64,000 nucleotides of DNA, from the NCBI GenBank assembly GCA_016793805.1, contig JAEUIZ010000029.1, positions 1 through 64,000 on the forward strand, read 5' to 3'. Position numbers and translations under genes: made by a program. Positions 2,559-14,176 of the stretch are shown here, piece after piece; position 1 is the first letter of the stretch, and each line of letters opens with the position of its first letter. This stretch comes from Phycisphaerae bacterium (GTDB taxonomy: Bacteria; Planctomycetota; Phycisphaerae; Phycisphaerales; UBA1924). Below the pieces are notes generated by a model that saw only the letters and a program-made list of their open reading frames with translations, ran no database searches and had not been told where the DNA came from.

Positions 2559-2587
2559 GGGCCCGGCATCACGCCGGGCCCTTCTTC
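2559..2587 (+). terminator. Rho-independent terminator (possibly bidirectional)
   Basis: A perfect 9-bp stem, GGGCCCGGC (2559-2567) and GCCGGGCCC (2573-2581), closes a 5-nt loop and is followed by TTCTTC. It lies 38 bp after the stop of the repeat protein and just beyond the 3' end of the convergent gene, so it can serve both directions. Confidence 0.6.
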
Positions 2588-4742
2588 ATTTCGCGCTCGC
2601 AGCCGCGGGGACCTTCTGAACGGTGTAATACGCCACCGCGTGCAGCAACGGCTGTCCCTGCGCGTCGCGCACGCCCGGCATCGCCAGTTCATGCACGTAC
2701 CCCATGCCCCCGGAACGCATCCGATCCAGCCGCAACCGCACCGAGCGAGGACCCAACACCTCGACCGCCGTGATCGCCGGCCGCTGTGTCTCCATCTCGG
2801 CCGACCCATACTGCGGGTGGTACTCGTACGTGTAACTCGACATCGAGTACGAACTCGCCTGGCCCGCCAACGCGGGGTTCATGTCCCGCGTGAACGTCAG
2901 CACAAAGCCGTCCGGTGCGATTCGCATGGTCTTGACCTCGAACGGCACCTGGCCCGTCCACGCGATCCGTTGCAGCCCAAAGCGCAGCCGTCCCGTCGAT
3001 CCCCACCCGCGATCCGTCTGGCCCACGAACATCGACCCATCTCCGCCCCAGCAGAGCCGATTCACCCCGCTATCGAGCGCCTCACGGAATGGAAAGCACG
3101 CGCCCTGGTAGTGCCCGTCGACCTTCTCCAGGTCCACCCGCATCACCAGGCACAGCGTCTGATCCCCGACGAACACCTGCCCCTCGTACGGCCCAAACCT
3201 GCCCGCGCCCTCGCTCGTCGGCGGCGGGTACAGCAAGAAGTCCGCCGTCGATTGCCCCATCTTCTTGTACGGGAACCACACCGTCGCCGGCTGCATCGGC
3301 GGGTCCGCGTCGCCCTGCTTCCAGTCCGAGCGCCACCGCAGCGACGCCGGATGCCCGGCCCACGAGCCCCGCACCAACTCCGTCATCCGGTTCGTGCCCA
3401 CGAAGTCGCCCTGATTGTCGAGGTAGAACATCGCGCCGTCCGAATACTCCCCGATCCCGTTCGGCGAGCGCAGCCCGTCCGACCACGGCTCCATCGTTCC
3501 GTCCGGCGTCAGCCGCAACGCCCACCCGCGATACGGCACCACCGACTTCCCCAACGCGTCGCAGAACCCCACGTTCAGCGTGATCCACGCGTTGCCCGCT
3601 CGATCAAACTTCGGCCCGAACGCGAACTCGTGGTAGTTTCCCGAGACGCCCCACCCCGAGCACGCCGTCTCGTAGATGTCCGCCACGTCGTCGCCGTTCG
3701 TGTCCTCCAGCCGCGTGAGTTCCCCGCGCTGGACGCAGTAGACGCTCACGCGGTCCTTGCCCGCCGCGTCTTTCTCTCGCCGCACCGCCAGCCCCAGCGG
3801 CTCGTGCAGGCCGGACGCGAACCGCGTGAACCTCGCGTTGTACGCCGGCGACTCGTACGCCCCGTCCACGATCCACACCTCGCCGCGTCGCGTCGAGATG
3901 ATCGGCCGCGCCTCGCCCTTCGCGTTCGGGGGCAGCACGTCCAGCCCGCCCACCTCCAGCGCGATCGACGCCGGCACCGGGATCGTCGTCGCCGTGTAAT
4001 ACCGCTCCTCCTCCGTCGGCGGAAAGTCCCGATTCAGTTGGTATTGCAACTGCGCGTCGATCATCGGATTGAGCGTGGGCCGGTTGTTGATCTGGTACTC
4101 CCACGACCCCGCGCCCTGGATCACCTTCGCCAGGACGTGGTTCACACCCTTGACCAGGTCCAGCCGAACCGTGTGATCCTCGGGGTTCATCCCCCGCGGC
4201 ACGTCCGCATCCACCACGAGTTTCCCGTTGATCCAGAACCGCAGCCCATCGTCCGAGCCCATCTGCACCGTGTAACTCGTCGCCTTGGCCGCCGTGATCG
4301 TCGTGTAGAGGTACCCCGCCGCGTTCACGTTCAGGTCCGGGTCGTCGAACTCGTTGAACCGCACCGCTCGGTTCGACGCATCCCCGATCGCCCGCCACCT
4401 GGCCTTGAAGCCGCCCTTGCCCTCATATTCCGCCGCCAGATTCGGCCCCGGGCCGTTGGCCTGCATCCGCGCCAACTCGGCCTCGGGGGCCAGCACCGTC
4501 GCCAGGTCCTTCTTCCCGCTCCCCTTCGCGGGGAACGGCGCGAGGATGTACCACGAGCCCCACACCCCGGTGTCCGGATTCAGCAGGTTGATCATCCGCA
4601 GTTCGGTCGCCTGCCGCGTCCCCTGCTTCTCATACACCACTCCGCCGATCTTGATCGGCGCGCCCGGCCCCTGCCCCGCCGCCGACACGACAACCCCCGC
4701 CCACATCGCCAGTCCCAGCACGCCCGCTCGCACTCGACCCAT
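2586..4742 (-). CDS. Secreted PA14-like / sorbosone-dehydrogenase-type beta-propeller protein (paralogue 2)
   Basis: The 718-aa product has a signal peptide (about 1-23). A PA14-like carbohydrate-binding region covers roughly residues 95-225 and contains GSDDGLRFWINGK near 160. From about 260 to 640 it resembles the glucose/sorbosone dehydrogenase propeller (GGLDVLP, SGNYHEFAFGPK, DGLRSPNGIG, VWFPYKKMGQ, TDRGWGSTG). A short C-terminal beta domain begins SYTYEYHPQYG. It starts at ATG with GGAG upstream. It lies 6 bp after its paralogue, which has the same domain order, and downstream of a multihaem cytochrome c, so the three probably share one transcript. The family suggests oxidation or binding of a sugar-like ligand outside the cytoplasm; substrate and activity are unknown. 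Confidence 0.75.
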   Translation of the reverse strand: MGRVRAGVLGLAMWAGVVVSAAGQGPGAPIKIGGVVYEKQGTRQATELRMINLLNPDTGVWGSWYILAPFPAKGSGKKDLATVLAPEAELARMQANGPGPNLAAEYEGKGGFKARWRAIGDASNRAVRFNEFDDPDLNVNAAGYLYTTITAAKATSYTVQMGSDDGLRFWINGKLVVDADVPRGMNPEDHTVRLDLVKGVNHVLAKVIQGAGSWEYQINNRPTLNPMIDAQLQYQLNRDFPPTEEERYYTATTIPVPASIALEVGGLDVLPPNAKGEARPIISTRRGEVWIVDGAYESPAYNARFTRFASGLHEPLGLAVRREKDAAGKDRVSVYCVQRGELTRLEDTNGDDVADIYETACSGWGVSGNYHEFAFGPKFDRAGNAWITLNVGFCDALGKSVVPYRGWALRLTPDGTMEPWSDGLRSPNGIGEYSDGAMFYLDNQGDFVGTNRMTELVRGSWAGHPASLRWRSDWKQGDADPPMQPATVWFPYKKMGQSTADFLLYPPPTSEGAGRFGPYEGQVFVGDQTLCLVMRVDLEKVDGHYQGACFPFREALDSGVNRLCWGGDGSMFVGQTDRGWGSTGRLRFGLQRIAWTGQVPFEVKTMRIAPDGFVLTFTRDMNPALAGQASSYSMSSYTYEYHPQYGSAEMETQRPAITAVEVLGPRSVRLRLDRMRSGGMGYVHELAMPGVRDAQGQPLLHAVAYYTVQKVPAAASAK

Positions 4743-4748
4743 GGCCGT

Positions 4749-6899
4749 TCACTCCGGCAAACGCTGCACCGTGTAGTACGCCCGATCGTGGAGGAGCGCC
4801 TCGCCGTCCTCCGCCGCCACCCCGACCGCCTTCAACTCGTACACGTATCCCATCCCTCCGTGACGCATCTCGTCCAGCCGGAGCCGGACCGACCGCGGCC
4901 CCTCGCGCTCGACGGACGTGATCGCGTGCGTTCGCGTGTCCTTCTCTTCCGACCCATACTGCGGATGGTACTCGTACGTGTAACTCGACACCCCGAACGC
5001 CCCCGGCCGCAGCGCTCCCTCGCCCACGTCGCGCGTGAACTCCAGCACGAACCCGTCCCGCCGCACGCGCATCGCCAGGATCTCCATCGGAGTCCGCCCA
5101 GTCCAGATGATCCGCTGCAATCCCTCCCGCTTCGGCCCGGTCGATCCCCACCCCCGGTCCGTCATCCCAACGAACATCGACCCGTCCTTGCCCCACGCCA
5201 GCCGATGCACCCCCGATGCCAGCCCGCGACGGAACGGGAAACACGCACCCTGGTACTCGCCACCGACTCGCTCGAGGAACACGCGGAACACCTCGCAGGT
5301 CGTCTGGTCGCCCACGAACACCTGCCCCGCAAACGGCCCGAACGCGCCGCCGCGATCATCCAGCAGGATGTCACTCGCCGACTGCCCCATCTTCTTGTAC
5401 GGGAACCACACCGCCGGCCACGTCACCTCCGGCACCGGCTTGCCCTCCGCGCGCCAGTCCTTCCCATACCCCTCGCGGAACCTCAGGCTCGCCTGATGCC
5501 CGTAGAACGCGCCCTCCTTCAGGTGGCACAACTTGTTCGTTGCCACGTAGTCGCCCTGGTTGTCCGTGTAGAACATCTCCCCGTCCGGGCCCATCCCGAT
5601 CCCGTCCGGCGAACGCAGCCCGTCCGCCACCTTGGACATCCGCCCCGCGTCCGGCCCACGCAACGGAATCCGCACCGACCACCCGCGCGTCGGCACCGTC
5701 GTCCCCATCGTCGTCTCCGCGTCGATGTGCGCCAGGTTCAGATTCACCCGTGCCTCGCCCTGCGCATCCAGTTTCGGCCCGAACGCGTACTCGTGATAGT
5801 TCCCCGTGATCTGCCACCCGTCGCAGATCGTCTCGAACGCCACCGGCCCGCCAAGACCCCTAAACCCATCCGGCGAGACGATCCGCGTCAGTTCTCCGCG
5901 CTGCGCCACCACAAACTCCACTCCGTCGCGCCCCCCGATCACCCGCAGCCCCAGCGGCTCCTGCAACCCCCGCGCGATCCGACGCCAACTCGTACCGACC
6001 GCCGGCGTCTCATACGCCCCATCCACCACGTACACCTCGCCGCGCCGCGTGCTCAGCGCCGGGCTCCCGTCGGGCATCACGTCCAGCCCGCCGACCTCCG
6101 CCGAAACGTGCCGCGGATGTGGGATCGTCGCCAGCCGATAGAACCGCGACTCCTCGTCCGGGAAGTCCGCGTCGAGTTGCCAGTCCAGCGCCGCCTCGAC
6201 CGCCGAATCCAAACTCTCGTCCAGCGTCATCTGGATCGACCACTCCCCCTTCCCCTGCGTCACCTTGGCCAGGAAGTGGTTCACGCCCTTTCGCAGCCGA
6301 AGTGCCACACGGTGCTCGCCGGGGCTCAGCGCGCGTTCCACCGCCGCCTCCACGACGACCTGCCCGTTGAGCCACGCGCGCAGCCCGTCGTCGCTCCCCA
6401 GCCCGATCATCGCCGTCGTGTCCCGGTCTGCCTCGATCCGCCGATACGCATACGCCGCCGCGAACTCTGCGGCACCGCCTTCGAGCCCTTCGCGCAGATC
6501 GATCGGCCCCAGCCCGCCCGTGCCCCCGATTGCGTTCCGCTCCTCGACCCGTGTCCATCCGATCTCGCCCGACTTGCCCGTGTATCGCCGCGCGAGGTCC
6601 GGCCCCGGGCCGCCTGCCCGCATCCGCGACAACTCCCGCTCCGGCTCGTGCGCAAGGTCGATCCGCTTCGCCCCCTCCGGCTGGTCAAACGGCCGCAGCA
6701 CGAACCACGGCCCCCACACCACCCCGCTCCCCGTCAGCGACGCCACCATCGCCGCTCGTGTTTCGGCTCTCGTCGCCAGTTTTACATACAGCCGGCCGCC
6801 GATGGCCGCCAGCTCCTGCCCCGTCGCCGCGCCCGTCGTCGCCGCCAACGCAACCAGCGGCGCGCACGCCTGCCACAGCCGGGGCCGCTTCGCGTTCAC
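4749..6899 (-). CDS. Secreted PA14-like / sorbosone-dehydrogenase-type beta-propeller protein (paralogue 1)
   Basis: This 716-aa protein is a paralogue of the next gene downstream and shares its whole layout: signal peptide (about 1-27, ending ATGQ), a PA14-like region with GSDDGLRAWLNGQ near 168, propeller motifs (GGLDVMP, GNYHEYAFGPK, DGLRSPDGIG, VWFPYKKMGQ, TDRGWGSTG) and the C-terminal SYTYEYHPQYG block. The start is GTG at 6897-6899 and overlaps the stop of the cytochrome gene by four bases (GTGA), so translation is probably coupled. Two related propellers may bind different ligands or form a heterodimer that hands electrons to the cytochrome. That is inference; no cofactor site is certain from the sequence. 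Confidence 0.75.
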   Translation of the reverse strand: MNAKRPRLWQACAPLVALAATTGAATGQELAAIGGRLYVKLATRAETRAAMVASLTGSGVVWGPWFVLRPFDQPEGAKRIDLAHEPERELSRMRAGGPGPDLARRYTGKSGEIGWTRVEERNAIGGTGGLGPIDLREGLEGGAAEFAAAYAYRRIEADRDTTAMIGLGSDDGLRAWLNGQVVVEAAVERALSPGEHRVALRLRKGVNHFLAKVTQGKGEWSIQMTLDESLDSAVEAALDWQLDADFPDEESRFYRLATIPHPRHVSAEVGGLDVMPDGSPALSTRRGEVYVVDGAYETPAVGTSWRRIARGLQEPLGLRVIGGRDGVEFVVAQRGELTRIVSPDGFRGLGGPVAFETICDGWQITGNYHEYAFGPKLDAQGEARVNLNLAHIDAETTMGTTVPTRGWSVRIPLRGPDAGRMSKVADGLRSPDGIGMGPDGEMFYTDNQGDYVATNKLCHLKEGAFYGHQASLRFREGYGKDWRAEGKPVPEVTWPAVWFPYKKMGQSASDILLDDRGGAFGPFAGQVFVGDQTTCEVFRVFLERVGGEYQGACFPFRRGLASGVHRLAWGKDGSMFVGMTDRGWGSTGPKREGLQRIIWTGRTPMEILAMRVRRDGFVLEFTRDVGEGALRPGAFGVSSYTYEYHPQYGSEEKDTRTHAITSVEREGPRSVRLRLDEMRHGGMGYVYELKAVGVAAEDGEALLHDRAYYTVQRLPE

Positions 6900-9655
6900 G
6901 GCCGAATCTCGACGCTGAACGTCACCGCCGCCGCCGCATCTTTCGCTCGCACGCCGACCAGCCTCGTCTTGTCATCACCTGCCTCGATGACCTCAGCCAC
7001 GTTCTCGATCGCCGTGCTGCCCGCGGCCTTCTCGCCCGCGTTGACCCACACCGTCGCGCCCGCCGGCACGCCCCGCACCACGAACGTCCGACGGATCATC
7101 GCTCCCAACTCCGCCGGCTCGAATCGCTCCTCTACCGTCACGCCCTCGCCGATCTCGTACCGGAAACTCGGCACGCCCGCCTCGTCGAGCGAGTAGCCGC
7201 GGAACCGATACCCGGCGGGCGCTCCCGTCGCCCTCGGCCACTTCTCGGGCTTTGCCCCGATCACGAGCGCCGGGCCGCTCGGCGCCGTCCAGATCGTCGG
7301 CCCGCGTCCGCCCGTGATCGTCCCGCCCCGGCCCTTCCACGCCCCCGTCGCGTCGATGAACTCGCCCTTCCACGCCGACACCAGCCGAACGCCCTCGGCG
7401 TCGAACGCGAAATGCACGCCGCTCGGATACCCCACCGCGATCGCCCGGCTTCCCGCGTCCTTCAGGAAACTCCGGAACACCGTCGGCCGGTCCTCGATCG
7501 CCACAGGCAGCCCCGCGCCGCTCGGCAAGCCCTCCGGCGGCGCCGCCGCTTTCGCCGCGCACAAGTACGCCCACAACGCCTCGCTCTGCCGATTCGCGTC
7601 TCCGCCGAACACGTCCGCCACGGAGCCTCGACCCGTCTCAAAGAACGCCGTCATCCGCGTCCCGGGCTTGAATCGCTGCGGGTCCATGATGTACGGCCGC
7701 CACCACGAAGGGCGGATCCGCTCCGCCATCGCCGTCATCTCCGGCCCCGCCGTCCCCGCGCTCTTGCCCCCGAACGTGTGGCACGAGATGCAGTTCATAC
7801 CCTTCTCGCCCACCAATCGCCGCCCCGCCCGCACCAACTCGTCCGTCGGCTTGCTCGCTTCCGTCTCCTCCGCCGTCGTCACGCCCTCGGTCGCCGACAG
7901 CATCGCGTGGAGCCCGCCCACGACGCCCTCGCCGAACTGCGGCATCCGCGTCGCCATGTACGGCCTCGCCCGCCCGCCCTCCACCAGGACCCTCCGCAGC
8001 CAGTCCGCACGCAACTTCCCGCCCACGCCCGTCAGCCGCGGCGGGAATCGGCCCTCGTCGCCCAGTTCCGTCTCGTCCGTGGTGCGGAAGTACGCCTTCA
8101 ACTCGTCCGCTGGCCCGCCGAATCCCTCGTGCTCGTGACAGTTCCGGCACCCCAGCGCCGACACCAGCAACCGCGCCTCGTCCAGCGGCGCTCGCGCAGT
8201 CCGGCCCACCGCCGACAGCCCCGCACCTAGGTCCGCTCGCTCGCTCGTGGTCAGCGTGTATCTCGGCGTGGCCTTGTCGTTCGCGTCCAGACATCCCTTC
8301 CCCGCCGTCAGCCGCGACATCGGCTTGCCCGTCCCCTTCCAGCCCGGCTGCGTCGCCCCAAACTCGTGGCACGCCACGCACCCGCGCGCCGCGAACGCCG
8401 CTCGTCCCGCCGCCGCTTTCCCCTCGTCAGAGACGAACCCGCCGCCGGCCTTCCCCTCGCCCCATGTCTTCACCAGGTACACCGCGATCAGGTCCGCCTC
8501 TTCTGCGCTCAGCGACATCGACGGCATTCGTCCCGCCGGCCGCGACTTGAGCGGGTCCTGCAGAAACGCCGACAACTCCGTCGCTTTCCACTTCCCGGCG
8601 ATCGCGCCGAACGGATGCGCCGCCCTCCCTTGCGGCATCGCTCCGGGCGAGCCCTCTCCAAAGACGCTCGCCGCCGGCTCGAGCGCCCCGTGGCATGCCA
8701 CGCACCCAACCGTGTGATACAGCCGCCGACCCAGGTCCGCGCCCTGCGTCTCGGTCCCCAGCGGCTCCGTTTCCCACGGGCCGCCCATGCTCGCCAGGAA
8801 GTGCACGATCGCCTCTGCGTCCACTGCGTCCTTGGGCGTCTCCCCGATCACGTCCGGCATTCCGCACCCAGGCTTCATGCCCTGCGGATCCGTCACCCAT
8901 CGCCGCAAGAACTCCGGCGCCGCTCGCTTGCCGATCGTCGACAGGTCCGGGCCCATCCGCCGAAGAACCGCCGCGCTTGCCGAGCCCCCCGAGTCCGCCG
9001 AGTGGCAGTTCACGCACCCCAACTCGCTCAGCAGCACTCGCCCGCGCAGCGCCCGCTCGGCCTCCTCAACTCCCTTCATCCCGAACGGCGGGACGCTCGC
9101 CACGGCCATCGGGATCGGTTCCGGCCTGAATCCCGCCTTGCCAACACCCTCTTTCTCCCAGAACGTGCGCACACTCGCGGGCCCCGTTCCGGCGCGGGCC
9201 ATCGCGACCGCCACCGTCGACGACCCGACCGGCAGGTCGATCCAGCCCGTCCACCTCGTGCCGGACGCGCTCGAAACCTCGCCGGCTTTCGCGCTCCCCG
9301 CCCCGTACACCGTCAGGCGTGCCGTCCCGCCGGAGGCCTCGACTCCGAAGCGATACCGTCCAGCGGCCTCGATCGCCACTCGGGCCGTGTGCGTGGTCTG
9401 CTCCGCCGCGGGCGTCCCCGATGCCAGCACCTCGCGCTCACTCAGCACAAACGCCGCGTTCGCCGCGTGCAGTTTCGCCGTCTCTTTCCCGCCGACGGAG
9501 ACTTGCGCGTACCACCCCGGCACGCGCGGCTCGGGCTGCTTCGGCGGCTGCTGCCCCAGGGCCGACACCAGCCCAACCGTCCCCAGTCCGATCGCGCTCG
9601 CCAGACCCCACGCGACCCCCGCCCGACTCGACCACCGCCTCGGCGCACGCGACAT
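6896..9655 (-). CDS. Exported five-haem cytochrome c-type protein
   Basis: The 919-aa product has five CxxCH haem c sites: CVNCH (about 214), CVACH (318), CVACH (426), CRNCH (503) and CISCH (622). The N-terminus (MSRAPRRW, then a hydrophobic stretch ending ALGQQ) is a signal peptide or anchor. Residues 50-200 look beta-rich. The last 250 residues carry no haem motif and end in a beta domain. The ATG at 9655 was chosen because AAGGAG lies 7 bases upstream and because an earlier start would run into the neighbouring gene's end. It is the first gene of the operon with the two propeller proteins and is the likely electron acceptor or relay in the periplasm. Terminal partners are not in the window. 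Confidence 0.85.
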   Translation of the reverse strand: MSRAPRRWSSRAGVAWGLASAIGLGTVGLVSALGQQPPKQPEPRVPGWYAQVSVGGKETAKLHAANAAFVLSEREVLASGTPAAEQTTHTARVAIEAAGRYRFGVEASGGTARLTVYGAGSAKAGEVSSASGTRWTGWIDLPVGSSTVAVAMARAGTGPASVRTFWEKEGVGKAGFRPEPIPMAVASVPPFGMKGVEEAERALRGRVLLSELGCVNCHSADSGGSASAAVLRRMGPDLSTIGKRAAPEFLRRWVTDPQGMKPGCGMPDVIGETPKDAVDAEAIVHFLASMGGPWETEPLGTETQGADLGRRLYHTVGCVACHGALEPAASVFGEGSPGAMPQGRAAHPFGAIAGKWKATELSAFLQDPLKSRPAGRMPSMSLSAEEADLIAVYLVKTWGEGKAGGGFVSDEGKAAAGRAAFAARGCVACHEFGATQPGWKGTGKPMSRLTAGKGCLDANDKATPRYTLTTSERADLGAGLSAVGRTARAPLDEARLLVSALGCRNCHEHEGFGGPADELKAYFRTTDETELGDEGRFPPRLTGVGGKLRADWLRRVLVEGGRARPYMATRMPQFGEGVVGGLHAMLSATEGVTTAEETEASKPTDELVRAGRRLVGEKGMNCISCHTFGGKSAGTAGPEMTAMAERIRPSWWRPYIMDPQRFKPGTRMTAFFETGRGSVADVFGGDANRQSEALWAYLCAAKAAAPPEGLPSGAGLPVAIEDRPTVFRSFLKDAGSRAIAVGYPSGVHFAFDAEGVRLVSAWKGEFIDATGAWKGRGGTITGGRGPTIWTAPSGPALVIGAKPEKWPRATGAPAGYRFRGYSLDEAGVPSFRYEIGEGVTVEERFEPAELGAMIRRTFVVRGVPAGATVWVNAGEKAAGSTAIENVAEVIEAGDDKTRLVGVRAKDAAAAVTFSVEIRP

Positions 9656-12681: not shown

Positions 12682-12805
12682 TGCGGACCTCCGTCGCCGA
12701 CGCCCTTTCCGGACGCGGCAGGCATCTGTTCAACCTTAGGGGGCGAAGTCTAGGCAGGCCGGGGCACTTGCGGCGAGTGGTAGCATGCCCCAGAAAGGAC
12801 GCCCG

Positions 12806-14176
12806 ATGCGACTCCTGCTCCCCCTTGTCCTCGTCGCTTCCACACTCGTATCGCGGGCAGCAGCCCAGGATCTCTCCCTCCCTGGCCCCTACCTCGGCGC
12901 CTGGCGCTCGGTCACGGTCACCCGCGCCAACTCGTCCACCTTCACCGCTCGCCTCTACTACCCAGGCCAGTCCGCCGGTCAGAACGCACCCCTTGACCCC
13001 TCGGGCGCGCCCTACCCCGCCGTCTCCTTCGGGCACGGGTTCCTCCAGCCCGTCGATCGCTACCAGTCCACACTCCTGCACCTTGCCACCTGGGGGTACC
13101 TCGTCATCGCCAGCGATTCCGAGTCCGGCCTCTTCCCCAGCCACTCCAACTTCGCCCTCGACATGCGCCAGTGCTTGACCTTCCTCGAACAGTCCAACAC
13201 CGCGCCGGCGTCGTTTCTCTATCAGGCCGTCGATCCCACCCGCTTCGGCATGTCGGGCCACTCGATGGGCGGGGGCGCAAGCATCCTCGCCACTGCCGCC
13301 GACCCTCGGGTCAAGGCCCTCGCCAAACTGGCTGCCGCCGAGACCAATCCCTCCGCCGTCGCCCAGATGGCGGCCATCACGGCCCCGGTCTCCCTCATCA
13401 GCGGGAGTGCCGACTCCATCGTCCCAGTGGCCTCGAACGGCCTACTCATGTTCAACGCGGGCACCGCCCCGAAGTTGCTCCCAGTCATCCAGGGCGGCTG
13501 GCACTGCGGCTTCGAGGACGTCTCGACCTTCGGCTGCGACTCCGGCCCCCTCCCGCGCGCCGACCAACTCGCCCTCACCCGCCGCCTTCTCACCGCCTTC
13601 TTCAACCTCCACCTCAAGGGCGACCAGTCCGCGTGGCGTCACGTCTGGGGGCCCGAGCGAGACGCCGACCCGCGAGTCATCACGACAGCCGCCTCAGGAA
13701 TCACGATCACGCCCGCGAACCCGTCATCCGAGGCCGCCGGCGGCATGGTCGCCGAAGTCGAAGTCCGCGTCGCCAACACCGGGCCGCGAGCCTCGGCCTA
13801 TCGCGTTCTCGTCGAAGACGCCGCTTGGCCGACCAGCGCCTCCCCGGACCTCACGCCTGTGCTCTCGCCCGGCGCCGAGGCCGCCGTCCGCGTGACCACC
13901 CAGGTACCCTTCGGCTTCTCCTCGATCAGCACGACCGCGCTCCTGACCGCTCGTTCCGAGGCCGACGGCGCGACCCGCGCTCACACCATGCTCACCGTCC
14001 GTCGCAGGTGCCTCGCCGACATCGACCGCAACGGCACCCTGAGCATCAACGACTTCGTCGCCTTCCAGAACGCCTTCGCCGCCGGCAGCCCCGACGCCGA
14101 CGCCGACGCTAACGGCCTGCTCAACGTCAACGACTTCGTCGTCTTCATCAACGCCTTCGCCGCCGGCTGTTCGTGA
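12806..14176 (+). CDS. Secreted alpha/beta hydrolase with C-terminal dockerin-like EF-hand pair
   Basis: The 456-aa product has a signal peptide ending SRAAAQ. An alpha/beta-hydrolase domain follows whose nucleophile elbow is GHSMGGG (Ser153), with Asp203 in SGSADS and His233 in GGWHCG completing the triad. This resembles the cutinase/PET-hydrolase-like and dienelactone-hydrolase-like group of esterases. Residues 300-400 form a beta domain. The end (about 405-456) has two EF-hand loops (DIDRNGTLSIND, DADANGLLNVND) flanked by Cys, the GC-type dockerin tail typical of planctomycete exoproteins. ATG at 12806 follows AAAGGA by six bases. The natural ester substrate is unknown. Confidence 0.75.
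   Translation: MRLLLPLVLVASTLVSRAAAQDLSLPGPYLGAWRSVTVTRANSSTFTARLYYPGQSAGQNAPLDPSGAPYPAVSFGHGFLQPVDRYQSTLLHLATWGYLVIASDSESGLFPSHSNFALDMRQCLTFLEQSNTAPASFLYQAVDPTRFGMSGHSMGGGASILATAADPRVKALAKLAAAETNPSAVAQMAAITAPVSLISGSADSIVPVASNGLLMFNAGTAPKLLPVIQGGWHCGFEDVSTFGCDSGPLPRADQLALTRRLLTAFFNLHLKGDQSAWRHVWGPERDADPRVITTAASGITITPANPSSEAAGGMVAEVEVRVANTGPRASAYRVLVEDAAWPTSASPDLTPVLSPGAEAAVRVTTQVPFGFSSISTTALLTARSEADGATRAHTMLTVRRRCLADIDRNGTLSINDFVAFQNAFAAGSPDADADANGLLNVNDFVVFINAFAAGCS

Follow-up and report, generated by a model that had tools for sequence, protein, structure and literature searches.

Several described systems resemble the one considered here. The PQQ aldose sugar dehydrogenases and soluble glucose dehydrogenases (GDH) of family PF07995 (3das, 2g8s, 1c9u) share its six-bladed fold, an aligned catalytic His and an aligned 'RN'-motif Arg; neither this fold nor the notion that a sugar dehydrogenase passes electrons to cytochromes is new. 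Bacteroidota encode ThuA-GSDH-PKD-cytochrome c proteins, which likewise join a propeller to cytochrome c and ThuA, but in these a true PF07995 propeller (144.9 bits) forms part of a single polypeptide. One such protein, with an additional CBM6 domain, directly follows the fused propeller-cytochrome gene of our module in Chitinophaga alhagiae (L143:9847-13281), so that two propeller redox proteins lie side by side. The DUF7133 (PF23500) and TIGR02604 families of PVC bacteria combine a related propeller with a link to c-haem; here, by contrast, the haems reside on a separate five-haem protein, and TIGR02604 scores reach 19-22 bits against a cut-off of 122. The lactose 3-dehydrogenase LacABC is a different dehydrogenase, and not a propeller protein. 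Together with a DUF1080 hydrolase it offers a parallel of another sort, periplasmic sugar oxidation beside a putative 3-ketoglycoside hydrolase (PMC9007349). Finally, the planctomycete-specific cytochromes PSCyt1-3 come from PVC phyla, have CBM/PA14 domains and sulfatase neighbours, and have no assigned function, but were described with PSD domains rather than with a propeller pair (PMC5615132); TIGR02603, the only PSCyt-related profile compared, gives 31 bits with the present operon (cut-off 68.15).

The operon lies in a window of 64,000 nucleotides, the whole stretch analysed, from a Phycisphaerae bacterium (contig JAEUIZ010000029.1). Three neighbouring genes run head to tail on the minus strand: P0001 (6896..9655), a predicted exported five-haem c-type cytochrome of 919 aa with a PA14 domain, five cytochrome c domains and a DUF6797-like C-terminal domain; then P0002 (4749..6899; 716 aa) and P0003 (2586..4742; 718 aa), predicted exported proteins with a PA14-like region followed by a propeller. 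P0002 starts with the GTG at 6899, overlapping the P0001 stop by four bases (GTGA), and P0003 starts six bases past the P0002 stop. By eye, a signal-peptide-like stretch opens each of the three, and P0002 and P0003 share 50% identity across 725 columns. The original prediction had described this layout, the five CxxCH sites of the first gene (exactly five are counted) and the two paralogous secreted proteins, and in these respects it was accurate. We read the locus, with a probability of about 0.55, as an exported two-part sugar dehydrogenase module that feeds electrons to c-haem or copper carriers.

A chance neighbourhood is excluded, because the adjacency of propeller and multihaem cytochrome is conserved. 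Of 392 genomes of the phylum, 169 contain a P0003 homologue; the named set spans Planctomycetota, Verrucomicrobiota, Bacteroidota and one Acidobacteriota MAG. A multihaem P0001-like gene adjoins the propeller at 83 of 120 loci, upstream of it in all 81 with scored order; Planctomycetota and Verrucomicrobiota both conserve the five-haem cytochrome-propeller pair. The complete order of cytochrome, P0002-type and P0003-type is found again in L074 and L075, two further MAGs of the Phycisphaerales, while relatives of the same family pair the cytochrome with a single type, P0002-type in L160 and P0003-type in L161 and L162. In the tree the two types form separate supported clades, and the window has one copy in each. 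Since both are kept in the window, L074 and L075 and only one in the other relatives, the duplication predates these species, and copies have since been lost or transferred; a recent local duplication is rejected on the same grounds. The proposed three-gene order thus does recur elsewhere, but the notion of a system with duplicated propellers needs amending: a single propeller is the rule among relatives, and what is widespread is the pair. A literature search combining sorbosone dehydrogenase and Verrucomicrobia found nothing.

The partner of the propeller is exchangeable. Propellers that lack the five-haem partner usually have a cupredoxin or a monohaem cytochrome fused to them, or a separate carrier encoded next to them. 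A C-terminal cupredoxin is fused to 9 of the 120 propellers and a monohaem cytochrome c to 3; in all twelve the upstream gene retains the C-terminal region of P0001, without haem. Of 18 loci scored as having none, three (L038, L041, L083) are artefacts of the overlap rule, with five haems adjacent, and a one- or two-haem cytochrome is adjacent in further loci (L067, L068, L070, L073, L123, L129); about 8 of the 120 have no carrier nearby. Small copper proteins and cytochromes have little in common apart from single-electron transfer; their interchange leads us to infer that a redox enzyme is formed by the propeller, alone or together with DUF6797. This swapping of carriers, the conserved order and the fold each support the part of the original prediction that saw a dedicated oxidation system with a cytochrome as carrier; the PQQ that it also invoked fares worse (below). 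In one genome of the same class a separate cupredoxin gene (L064:9110-10225) immediately precedes the propeller gene, where the five-haem cytochrome would otherwise stand.

The propeller had been called sorbosone-dehydrogenase-type, a description that survives for the fold and not for the sequence family. PF07995 has no match in P0002 or P0003 at E<=1 in Pfam, and in the window's own genome it finds other genes only. DUF7133 gives 26.1 bits with P0003 (cut-off 27), and passes the cut-off in homologues (L143, 38.2; L139, 50.8; L119, 34.4 bits); in NCBIfam the two propellers have only TIGR02604 (PVC-type heme-binding CxxCH), at 21.9 and 18.7 bits against its cut-off of 122.2. Searched directly by sequence, the PDB offered nothing beyond PA14 and fragments of designed propellers. 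P0003 was modelled with AlphaFold2 from 72 sequences (mean pLDDT 92.9); the model gives residues 244-598 (2949..4013, minus strand) a predicted aldose sugar dehydrogenase fold, that is, a six-bladed propeller of the quinoprotein type. PQQ sugar dehydrogenases resemble it most closely (3a9g at Z 30.0, with 3.1 A over 304 residues; 2ism, 29.6; 3das, 28.4), with E. coli Asd at 27.9 and Acinetobacter GDH at 24.7. Other six-bladed propellers score lower, lactonases and DFPase at ~24.5; against the enzyme reading, lactonases and binding proteins share the architecture at a Z only about 5 lower. The PA14-like region claimed for both propeller proteins stays below the Pfam cut-off of 24 bits (P0003, 21.2; P0002, 13.9); a PA14 fold is modelled at the N-terminus of P0001.

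Active-site residues were compared with a profile of eleven true sugar dehydrogenases from related genomes, to which the propeller family aligns with a probability of 97.4 (E 1.6e-11). Tyr370-His371-Glu372 of P0003 (3627..3635, minus strand) is invariant in 72/72 homologues, and in the alignment His371 corresponds to the catalytic His of the PQQ sugar dehydrogenases. Arg425 (3468..3470, minus strand), equally invariant, aligns with the conserved 'RN'-motif Arg (Arg228 of Acinetobacter GDH); the Asn of that motif (Asn229) is replaced by Ser in 71 of 72. The RxR pair that anchors PQQ (Arg406/Arg408 of Acinetobacter GDH) never varies among the true sugar dehydrogenases of the related genomes, but aligns with G559 and N561 of P0003 and is not Arg in the family: among the 72 homologues the first position holds Gly (63) or Ala (8), the second a mix of Leu, Asn, Val and His. 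A look for PQQ-binding residues yields a divided answer, with His and Arg kept and the anchors lost.

One way to accommodate the shared fold and the retained His and Arg is to suppose a PQQ-dependent sugar dehydrogenase that scavenges its cofactor and uses the cytochrome as acceptor. We consider this quite improbable: beside the replaced Arg pair, which is Arg without exception in the true enzymes, and the change of Asn229 to Ser, PqqC exceeds its cut-off in just 2 of the 392 phylum genomes and was not found in the window's genome (83% complete). On these grounds PQQ is unlikely to be the cofactor of the propeller, contrary to the original prediction, and the cofactor is probably not self-made PQQ. 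The system is set apart from the PF07995 enzymes by these losses, and by its five-haem partner.

The loss of the PQQ anchors may also mean that the fold has lost catalysis altogether. A second perspective supposes that the propeller is a non-catalytic carbohydrate-binding device, which docks the multihaem cytochrome on a polysaccharide or outer acceptor, with the haem protein performing catalysis or extracellular electron transfer. PA14 domains in these proteins are in keeping with such a role, and Hedgehog-interacting protein, among the fold matches of P0003, demonstrates that a GSDH-type propeller can be purely a binder. Yet Tyr-His-Glu and Arg are invariant over several phyla, which suggests a conserved active site, and Bacteroidota replace the five-haem protein by small single-site carriers; we judge the binding account unlikely, and retain the oxidoreductase reading.

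P0001 itself has, judged from its sequence, the features of a multihaem c-type cytochrome: predicted export, and CxxCH sites at residues 214, 318, 426, 503 and 622 within cytochrome c domains (PF00034, 78 bits over four stretches). Four haems have a likely Met as sixth ligand, conserved wherever the region aligns among 45 cytochromes: site 1 (CVNCH, 9002..9016) with Met266, site 2 (CVACH, 8690..8704) with Met377, site 4 (CRNCH, 8135..8149) with Met571 and site 5 (CISCH, 7778..7792) with Met668, all on the minus strand. Site 3 (CVACH, 8366..8380, minus strand) keeps its Cys and His in 45/45 but has no conserved Met, M446 being present in only 4/45; Cys455 (8291..8293, minus strand) is invariant (45/45), has no conserved disulfide partner in the same 45 sequences, and is a candidate axial ligand. 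His/Cys ligation of haem 3 by this lone Cys is plausible. The SoxX profile TIGR04485 of NCBIfam scores 80.3 bits (cut-off 61), a sum over stretches of a five-haem protein, and for that reason the match was not read as an indication of function.

The rest of P0001 flanks the haem region. In the model (mean pLDDT 87.9), residues 40-195 (9071..9538, minus strand) adopt a predicted PA14-type carbohydrate-binding fold, with Z 17.6 to RsgI3 PA14 and 12.7 to the sugar-bound PA14 of MpAFP; this is the best-matching portion, and PA14 matches fill the fold list. The C-terminal domain (6899..7528, minus strand) is DUF6797-like (PF20601, 19.8 bits; cut-off 24.9) and is the sole part of P0001 retained in Bacteroidota. 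Even where the haems are lost, DUF6797 and the propeller stay together, and it could be argued that DUF6797 is the catalytic partner, with the propeller merely completing the site. We think this very unlikely: neither a fold nor a cofactor site was identified for DUF6797 in the search with the whole P0001 model, where the best match lies in PA14. A literature search on DUF6797 found nothing.

Sugars, which the original prediction had named for the propeller family, are supported as substrates by the genomic context of relatives, which points to carbohydrates. DUF1080 is a proposed 3-ketoglycoside hydrolase found beside a periplasmic sugar 3-dehydrogenase (PMC9007349); as a caution, Planctomycetes have an unusual abundance of it, and an endo-xanthanase has been reported among its members (PMC5673643, PMC9007349). 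Annotated as 3-keto-disaccharide hydrolase, it is fused to the propeller in L036, L139, L067 and L068. In L044 it is joined, along with ThuA, to the five-haem cytochrome, and in Bacteroidota to the DUF6797 protein. Among genes directly adjacent to the module, the top domains are ThuA (5/98) and DUF1080, sugar isomerase-like, sulfatase and GFO/IDH/MocA (4/98 each), and in control genes 4-5 positions away none of the five reaches 2/103. The Mariniflexile module clusters with GH29 and GH95 (fucosidases), a GH141-like beta-helix and a sulfatase, that of Chitinophaga with SusD, GH20, GH97 and sulfatases. Beside the window's own operon there are no carbohydrate genes, and its genome has two DUF1080 genes elsewhere. 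The module possibly oxidizes sugars at C3, a lead rather than a result; DUF1080 may serve as a sugar-binding domain only.

In the mechanism we propose, the propeller would bind sugar with the help of the PA14 domains, and His371 would act as base, as in glucose dehydrogenase. Electrons would then pass to the five-haem chain of P0001 (or elsewhere to a cupredoxin or monohaem cytochrome), and from there enter the respiratory chain. The product in relatives would probably be a keto-sugar, perhaps a 3-keto-sugar, handled by the fused or neighbouring DUF1080 and ThuA domains. P0002 and P0003, as old paralogues, would probably act on different substrates and share one cytochrome.

A further and bolder generalization, which we offer tentatively and would expect to fail at some point, is a widespread class of sugar dehydrogenases with a quinoprotein propeller fold and no PQQ, with interchangeable haem and copper carriers (one haem perhaps His/Cys), opening glycosides by way of keto-sugars for DUF1080 hydrolases. 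The papers found in the literature searches describe neither the lost PQQ anchors nor the swapped carriers. Planctomycetes and Verrucomicrobia are rich in secreted cytochromes and propellers without assigned function that are tied to polysaccharide use; the swapping of carriers makes the claim for one such family, that of a sugar oxidoreductase, concrete and testable, with residues and partner proteins named. Should its cofactor be other than PQQ, a well-known enzyme fold would be working with something different.

Two other genes of the window may be mentioned. Convergent with the operon, an 835-aa ORF on the plus strand (14-2521) has a repeated unit 'GGNLSATATTGDVTDSGT...' and resembles a filamentous or autotransporter-type passenger. 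A putative secreted alpha/beta hydrolase (12785-14176, plus strand) ends in a double 'NVNDFVVFINAFAAGC' motif; the same type of tail, which may be a sorting or dockerin-like tail and which the operon proteins lack, terminates the PF07995 protein of L001, another locus of this genome.
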